A stretch of 64,000 nt of DNA from an uncultured Coriobacteriaceae bacterium (GTDB lineage: Bacteria > Actinomycetota > Coriobacteriia > Coriobacteriales > Coriobacteriaceae): positions 62,001 to 126,000 of the forward strand of contig CALUIM010000002.1 of the NCBI GenBank assembly GCA_944320725.1, in the 5' to 3' direction. The notes beneath the pieces are model-generated. The model saw only the letters and a program-made list of their open reading frames with translations, ran no database searches and was not told where the DNA came from. A program made the position numbers and the translations under genes. Each line of letters begins with the position of its first letter. The first letter of the stretch is position 1. Positions 8,677 through 53,018 of the stretch are shown one piece after another.

Positions 8677-8757
8677 GGGCATCGGCATGCCGGGACTCAG
8701 GCCCCTTCGGCATGGGTTCCGGCATGATACGACCCATGCCCAAAACAAGTTTTTTCT
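8677..8757 (+). terminator. Possible complex terminator after the flavodoxin gene
   Basis: Nested arms (GGGCAT at 8677 with ATGCCC at 8736; CATGCCGG at 8686 with CCGGCATG at 8719) are followed by a spacer and six T residues near 8751-8756. The T run is separated from the stem, so efficiency is doubtful. Confidence 0.4.
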
Positions 8758-8774: not shown

Positions 8775-8954
8775 TGTCATTTAGTTCAGATTCCGGAGCG
8801 ATGAGGTGAATTCATTGCACCGTTGGTTTATCGTGACGGCATATCGCACGTATAAAGATATAAAACATGGAGCTATTATTCTACAGCAGGCAGGATTATG
8901 CCTTCCGAGGCGATGCGAAGCCAGGCAATGCTCCGGAATCTGAACTAAATGACA
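8775..8954. repeat. 180-bp cassette with perfect 25-bp terminal inverted repeats
   Basis: The left arm (8775-8799, beginning TGTCATTTAGTTCAG) and the right arm (8930-8954) are exact reverse complements over 25 bp and enclose 130 bp of relatively A+T-rich DNA. No coding sequence of credible length is inside, and no clear target-site duplication flanks it. The interior contains two TATAAA-like boxes (8851 and 8859). It is either a MITE-like non-autonomous element or an invertible promoter segment. It occupies most of the 411-bp gap between the flavodoxin and the Cys-rich gene. Confidence 0.7.
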
Positions 8955-9033
8955 AAAAGAGGCCGCGATTTCCAAAAAACTCAGGCCGCGCGTATCATCG
9001 TGCATGAAAAGCAGCTTGGACGGTTGGAGCATC

Positions 9034-9330
9034 ATGAGCACAATACCTCGGGAGACGCCCCAGGGGCGCTATCGGTTCTTCAACCATGCCGCATGCGAGT
9101 TTTACCCGTGCCACGACATGCCGGCAGACGAGCTCAACTGCCTGTTTTGCTTTTGCCCGCTGTATGCGCTCGGTCCCGATTGCGGCGGCAACTTTACATA
9201 CGTGGGCGAGCACAGTGACATCAAGGATTGCTCCGCGTGCATCGTGCCGCATCGGCGCGAGAACTACGACTACATCATGAGCAGGTTTGCCGATATCCAA
9301 AAGCTGGCGGAATCGCGCGATCAGGCGTGA
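9034..9330 (+). CDS. Cysteine-rich small-domain protein
   Basis: This is a 98-residue protein with a dense cysteine pattern: CEFYPCH, then NCLFCFCPLY, then DCGGNF and KDCSACIVPH. It matches the Cys-rich small domain family (PF04071-like), presumed to bind metal and of unknown function, sometimes seen near cobamide genes; none are visible here. ATG 9034 is preceded by TTGGAG; an ATG at 9004 would add ten residues without a ribosome site. It begins 80 bp after the inverted-repeat cassette, whose orientation could affect it if invertible. Confidence 0.75.
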   Translation: MSTIPRETPQGRYRFFNHAACEFYPCHDMPADELNCLFCFCPLYALGPDCGGNFTYVGEHSDIKDCSACIVPHRRENYDYIMSRFADIQKLAESRDQA

Positions 9331-32861: not shown

Positions 32862-32988
32862 AAGATTTGTTCGTTTCAAAGGTCATGCCGCCACGTATGC
32901 AAAAAAGGTCCAAGCGTTCTACCTGCGGAATCTTTGCAACAAATGTTGTGTATATATGGGGGACCACCCTTTGAAACGAACAAATCTT
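32862..32988. repeat. 127-bp cassette with perfect 21-bp inverted repeats
   Basis: The arm at 32862-32882 (beginning AAGATTTGTTCGTTTCAAAG) is the exact reverse complement of 32968-32988, enclosing 85 bp. The interior includes AT-rich TATATATG near 32951 and could hold a promoter. An 8-base AAGATTTG fragment recurs at about 33043. No gene lies in the 397-bp gap 32703-33099 apart from this. It is a candidate invertible promoter or MITE; its arms differ from those of the 8775 cassette. Confidence 0.68.
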
Positions 32989-44283: not shown

Positions 44284-44374
44284 ATCGCAATCCCGAACGG
44301 TGGGAATGCGTCTTCGAACGGTTGCAGGGGATGCATTTCCGGCTCCCCCGCACTGCGTTTCGCATACCTTGGAG

Positions 44375-52925: not shown

Positions 52926-53018
52926 TTGCCAAACAGACCGTTAATGCAAAACTGCCCGCTAAATGTGCTTTTGAGGGGCACTTAGCGGGCAGTTTTGCAT
53001 TATCGTCACGTTTGGCAA
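52926..53018. repeat. Nested palindromic element between the two transaldolase genes
   Basis: A perfect 21-bp stem (52942-52962 with 52982-53002, core AAAACTGCCCGC) encloses a 19-base loop that itself pairs (GTGC/GCAC). Outside an internal loop, a second perfect 9-bp pair TTGCCAAAC (52926-52934) / GTTTGGCAA (53010-53018) extends the structure to 93 bp. It could form a cruciform, a strong bidirectional terminator or a small transposable remnant. Little else is in the 417-bp gap. Confidence 0.75.

Follow-up and report, generated by a model that had tools for sequence, protein, structure and literature searches.

A solitary copy of a paired-site repeat element in Coriobacteriaceae, probably read by a nuclease-like protein from another locus

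The 180-bp cassette at positions 8775–8954 of the window, the whole 64,000-nucleotide stretch of Coriobacteriaceae DNA analysed here, is in our judgment likely to be a lone copy of an element made of paired sites, read by a dedicated nuclease-like protein whose gene lies elsewhere in the same genome. Sequence comparisons support the gene-repeat pairing well, and we read it as a REPIN-RAYT-like relationship apparently built on an unrelated nuclease family. The sequences themselves show how many copies there are, that their arms are paired, conserved and helically phased, that elements are linked to the gene and covary with its protein, and that putative catalytic residues are conserved, whereas binding, looping, cutting and mobilisation are inferred. 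This suggests that the family Coriobacteriaceae has a gene-plus-repeat system not yet described; searches of the open-access literature found no account of these elements or genes.

The cassette, its flanking tracts, and a second element in the window are arranged as follows.

8775–8954, no strand: element, two inverted arms and the 130 bp between them (from the sequence, and from an orthologous element, L090, in the sister species G001)
8775–8799, + strand: left arm, putative recognition sequence of family A (9 paired copies in G000, the genome holding the window, and 10 in G001)
8930–8954, − strand: right arm, a perfect inverted copy (from the sequence)
8750–8755, no strand: T-tract ∼20 bp outside the left arm, common to the family (from the sequence and a logo of 38 arms)
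8974–8979, no strand: A-tract ∼20 bp outside the right arm, mirroring the T-tract (from the sequence and the same logo of 38 arms)
32862–32988, no strand: another element of this broad type, 127 bp long; its perfect arms of 21 bp differ in sequence from those of the cassette, and ACCTGC lies close to its middle

The two cassette arms are 25 nt each and 100% complementary, as originally described, and a search of the window with up to three mismatches recovered these two arms alone (mean over 100 shuffles, 0.00). The interior was predicted to be A+T-richer than its surroundings, and it is, at 54.6% compared to 40.5% and 45.0% in the 200 bp on each side and 37.6% in the window as a whole. The TATAAA boxes are present at 8851 and 8859, and the element does lie upstream of a small Cys-rich gene, ∼50–80 bp before it. 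This gene is zf-like (PF04071) and on the + strand, as is a flavodoxin gene (Flavodoxin_4) that ends 153 bp before the cassette. Two short open reading frames overlap the cassette (8781–9041, minus; 8949–9218, plus), and neither is supported as a gene. Rfam reported no RNA family in the elements; the sole matches in these loci, a tRNA and an RNase P gene, lie outside them. The second window element is located upstream of a dnaX-like reading frame (named from its translation), and no gene was identified for it; a 61-bp hairpin with 21-bp perfect arms at 52942–53002 is perhaps a transcription terminator.

The original prediction also proposed a search of the genome for further copies of the arm, and these exist. 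Paired elements number nine in the 2.07-Mb genome G000 (the window is on its contig 2) and ten in G001, with all arms being paired (18/18 and 20/20); the assemblies compared are draft and metagenome assemblies. No such pair is present in the other seven members of the genus at up to two mismatches. Eight element loci are orthologous between G000 and G001, and among these the 18-bp arm core has 0/288 substitutions, the interiors 334/1091 (31%), and the 150-bp flanks 508/2358. Element length is identical in six of these pairs and differs by 1 bp in two. The interior has the same orientation in seven of the eight; in the remaining pair, C12, it is inverted, with 83% identity in reverse and 61% forward, showing that inversion happens at least rarely. 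Interiors of different loci have only A+T-rich palindromes in common. One G001 element, L083, faces a short intergenic stretch in G000; this opposing site is messy and too diverged to reveal a duplication, and the comparison yielded neither a cleanly empty site nor a target duplication. At the C15 element, synteny between the two genomes breaks within ∼100–150 bp (L100 4001–4192 versus L089); the far flank in G001 maps to window position 44372 in G000, with a tyrosine recombinase gene ∼4 kb away in G000.

Matches to the arm elsewhere are few. Two single matches to the arm core in other phyla look like chance, as does a single arm at two mismatches in G038. The arm core is absent from viral contigs, where a second arm type (see below) gives single 17-mer matches only; plasmids yielded only 26-bp matches in unrelated organisms, and phages none. 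We also considered a full-length guide RNA, and this is unlikely because the genome holds no unpaired extra match to the arm 19-mer at up to two mismatches.

The spacing of the arms is strikingly regular. Family A elements have total lengths of 170–172, 180–181, 192–193 or 202–203 bp, and over 11 distinct loci the concentration at a period of 10.5 is 0.89, a value equalled by none of 20000 random sets. Length classes ∼10.5 bp apart indicate helical phasing, from which both arms are probably bound together, by a protein on one face of B-DNA. An inner A+T-rich palindrome is present in 12/19 copies, the window copy not being one of them, and its centre is phased to both arms at ∼80, 90, 101 or 112 bp. 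Those of L093, L098, L099, L084, L089 and L092 have a common A+T core and stems that differ, each being self-complementary. Elements with the second arm type number 12 in each of two other species, G005 and G006, with lengths of 145 bp in 11/12 and 156 bp in 1/12, and all 12 orthologous pairs between these genomes have equal length, a gap-free interior, and the same orientation. In the Collinsella-group genomes and G018, arm 14-mers lie 194–197 bp apart end to end in all of the exact pairs listed.

We note that several elements with unrelated arms (L234–L243 in G004, L156–L167 in G005, and window 32862–32988) carry CCTGC/GCAGG near the midpoint. By eye, this motif lies within 6 bp of the midpoint in 8/19 repeats of 127–185 bp; ACCTGC or GCAGGT is found in 8/12 G005 elements, and CCTGC/GCAGG is absent from family A. 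G004 is rich in inverted repeats (L234–L243, G004:C1:1–200000), with other families being 76 and 102–105 bp long with 28–48-bp arms.

The gene that we associate with family A encodes a 373-aa protein (G000:C1:108362–109480) and directly adjoins one of the elements. One large genus, the Collinsella group (a name that rests on one genome, G033, whose homolog has the coordinate 788690 in common with the annotated C. aerofaciens record NZ_OY725717), has a 375-aa gene between prs and pth; G000 has the same prs-gene-pth order, with one element, and its 373-aa product is 52% identical to the 375-aa protein. This ortholog is flanked by an element on one or both sides in 11 Collinsella-group genomes. 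A C. aerofaciens homolog (NZ_OY725717), annotated as a hypothetical protein, is followed after 39 bp by a 209-bp element, and a distant homolog directly adjoins one of the G005 elements. Using a profile of eight proteins, homologs were found in 64/65 genomes of the family at 2–12 per genome. The arm 14-mer is present in 21/65 family genomes, and is carried by 13/13 genomes with a close gene versus 8/52 others (Fisher test, 1.2e-8); genomes with elements and no close gene include G060, G061, G063, G028 and G071. In G001, the family A gene is split over reading frames (L361, L112; G001:C1:187112–187777), which may be real or an assembly error, and the arms are intact.

One Collinsella locus was examined for a rearrangement breakpoint at the element, and since the junction lies ∼70–100 bp outside it, there was no clean recombination at the arms. 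Comparison of L407 (G071) and L409 (G061) shows a ∼9.5-kb segment beside the element that is inverted and 99.7% identical, with flanks of ∼95% identity.

The association extends well beyond family A. An element is present at 25 of the 30 best homolog loci, 11 of the 30 being a single Collinsella ortholog group. Forty further homologs were picked by list order or genus, regardless of repeats, and at 29 of them an element lies no more than 700 bp away. Counting against the favoured explanation, five of the 30 and 11 of the 40 are without a detected element; the repeat finder requires fairly perfect arms. Control windows placed at random (in 200 kb of G003, in 200 kb of G004, and in samples of 20 kb from other genomes) contained an element in 21/400, 63/400 and 18/400 cases, respectively, or 102/1200 pooled. 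The 29/40 count exceeds the pooled control at p 2e-21 and G004 alone at 1e-13, albeit with loci that are not independent; the 40 include mutual orthologs (e.g. L379–L383) and hence overstate the number of independent events. Over 71 loci, in which one locus is included twice (L094 = L347), the element is downstream only at 29, on both sides at 19, upstream only at seven, and absent from 16. With elements being mostly downstream or two-sided, they are not simply promoter operators. The arms differ between subfamilies, and arm similarity tracks protein identity (Spearman 0.20, 0/2000 permutations), with the correlation being weak below ∼60% identity. The arm beside one G004 gene is also that of two dispersed G004 elements, and the arm beside one G018 gene is nearly identical to that of a dispersed G018 element.

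Structural modelling of the protein (pLDDT 91.3) predicts an AbiEi-like half and a Vsr-like half; an earlier model from an eight-row alignment (pLDDT 34.6) was discarded. Residues 1–218 of the model match AbiEi (6y8q_A; Z 6.7, rmsd 3.9, 121 aligned) and residues ∼220–345 match I-Bth0305I (3r3p; Z 6.3, rmsd 2.3, 94 aligned), both at middling Z values, and the C-terminal half also resembles Vsr (Z 5.1) and TnsA (Z 4.2). A PDB profile search likewise matched 3r3p, a 'mobile intron protein' (I-Bth0305I), at E 3.2e-4, while Foldseek returned no PDB match at E ≤ 0.001. Eight residues are invariant in 52 homologs (E131, S223, P224, E226, G240, D277, E288 and R306), among which E226, D277, E288 and R306 are putative active-site residues. 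The profile, the fold and the invariant residues together suggest that the C-terminal half is a Vsr/EDxHD-homing-endonuclease-like domain, all three being taken jointly because the Z values are middling. The N-terminal half may be AbiEi-like, a modest assignment from the model that is weaker than that of the nuclease. Among the 52 members, PADLOC assigned AbiEi to one, Pfam reported DUF559 for nine and MTES_1575 for five, and NCBIfam reported no families.

Both resemblances are informative about the predicted protein. AbiEi monomers are reported to bind two 23-bp inverted repeats and to bend the DNA (PMC7319586), and type IV toxin-antitoxin operators are similar in having ∼23-bp inverted-repeat pairs as sites, in addition to the modest N-terminal fold match; however, the repeats are reported to be 3–13 bp apart in AbiEi systems (PMC7319586) as opposed to ∼130 bp here. 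Other differences from AbiEi are that the elements are mostly downstream and dispersed, that the protein has an extra nuclease-like half, and that no toxin gene was noticed. The EDxHD endonuclease I-Bth0305I is reported to dimerise on a target almost 60 bp long (PMC3943268), and the likeness to it and to Vsr-like nucleases lies in the C-terminal profile and fold matches and in long recognition sites, which are putative here; unlike EDxHD homing endonucleases, there is no intron or intein, and the sites are paired and retained in the host genome. A protein with AbiEi-like and EDxHD-like domains is a reasonable candidate for reading two 25-bp sites set in helical phase.

The original prediction offered two identities for the cassette, a phase-variable promoter and a MITE, and the wider set of copies bears on both. 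The nine G000 elements lie between codirectional genes in four cases (sir2/folP, prs/373-aa gene, flavodoxin/Cys-rich, carA/carB), divergent genes in two, and convergent genes in three (pta/histidine kinase, radical SAM/Schlafen-like, amylase/histidine kinase); the names folP, prs, carA, carB and pta are read off translations and not from database matches. With contexts of all three kinds and one of eight interiors inverted, these data do not support promoter phase variation as the elements' general role. Mpi-type invertible promoters of Bacteroides fragilis likewise comprise many ∼180-bp segments that share a single inverted repeat. This likeness would fit a genome-wide set of promoters inverted by one invertase, as would the inverted C12 interior and the TATAAA boxes of the window copy. 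However, convergent genes flank 3/9 elements, leaving no gene to drive on either side, orientation is unchanged in 7/8 and 12/12 orthologous pairs, and a survey of tyrosine recombinases found no dedicated invertase, the two such genes in G001 both being closely matched in relatives; we regard this explanation as having a slim chance. The MITE proposal was right in spirit in seeing a repeat element, as the other arm copies show, and the copies are indeed short, intergenic and several, with inverted terminal repeats. It is nonetheless highly improbable that they are ordinary MITEs belonging to a known insertion-sequence family, as the interiors at different loci are not homologous beyond their A+T-rich palindromes, the arms are conserved in place, none of the 30 best gene-linked loci has a known transposase as partner, and the partner protein family matches no transposase in Pfam or NCBIfam. 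The sole candidate found for an autonomous unit with the same ends is the element-gene-element unit.

The main rival is that the elements are immobile host sites for regulation or chromosome architecture, with an AbiEi-like protein holding each pair in a phased loop and the dispersal being ancient. Arms that are unchanged in place in eight orthologous pairs, the helical phasing, and the reported binding and bending of 23-bp inverted-repeat pairs by AbiEi (PMC7319586) all agree with this. Strict arm conservation in place exceeds what slow mobility alone would predict, and it also fits a host function. Nevertheless we consider the rival unlikely, given gene contexts of every kind, element positions that vary from clade to clade, the G001 element that faces a short intergenic stretch in G000, and the invariance of the putative nuclease residues. 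That these are true REPINs moved by a RAYT, a Y1 transposase, has a negligible probability, as PF01797 is absent from G001 and G008, the arms by inspection are not palindromic REPs, and the linked gene is unrelated in sequence. REPIN copy numbers run into the hundreds whereas there are about ten copies here, with helix-phased spacing and, in place of a Y1 transposase, a protein that appears to be a Vsr-like nuclease. The resemblance to REPIN-RAYT systems is in layout, with dispersed, inverted doublets of ∼25-bp repeats between genes, a class-specific linked gene, and classes that vary by lineage (PMC3116915).

We therefore return to the explanation of a paired-site element with its own reader. 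Each element consists of an asymmetric ∼25-bp sequence present twice, the copies facing in opposite directions, and the 373-aa protein would recognise these arms in trans. Each subfamily keeps its own arm beside its gene, mostly downstream and often on both sides, with at least some also having dispersed solitary copies such as the window cassette. Protomers would bind both arms on the same helix face and join them in a short loop, and cutting by the nuclease could then drive copying or recombination in trans, spreading copies slowly, much as RAYTs have been proposed to spread REPINs (Bertels and Rainey 2011, PMC3116915). Slow mobilisation in trans is favoured because the copies are scattered, are not the same from clade to clade, and can occupy places where a relative has a short intergenic stretch. 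More tentatively, and with somewhat less than even confidence, the system may be a new class of mobile DNA in which a Vsr-like nuclease with an AbiEi-like module spreads phased pairs of ∼25-bp sites in trans, each protein lineage evolving its own site.

If this is so, the REPIN-RAYT lifestyle would have arisen a second time independently, and genomes throughout the Coriobacteriaceae, those of Collinsella among them, would each carry several gene-site pairs. A gene family that is widespread but unannotated in gut Coriobacteriaceae would thereby be tied to its probable DNA sites, providing a second, unrelated case in which single genes go with paired repeats scattered over the genome. With two independent systems, the long retention of such repeats in bacteria becomes comparable across them, and protein-site pairs that diverge in step may constitute a natural set of long-sequence DNA readers.
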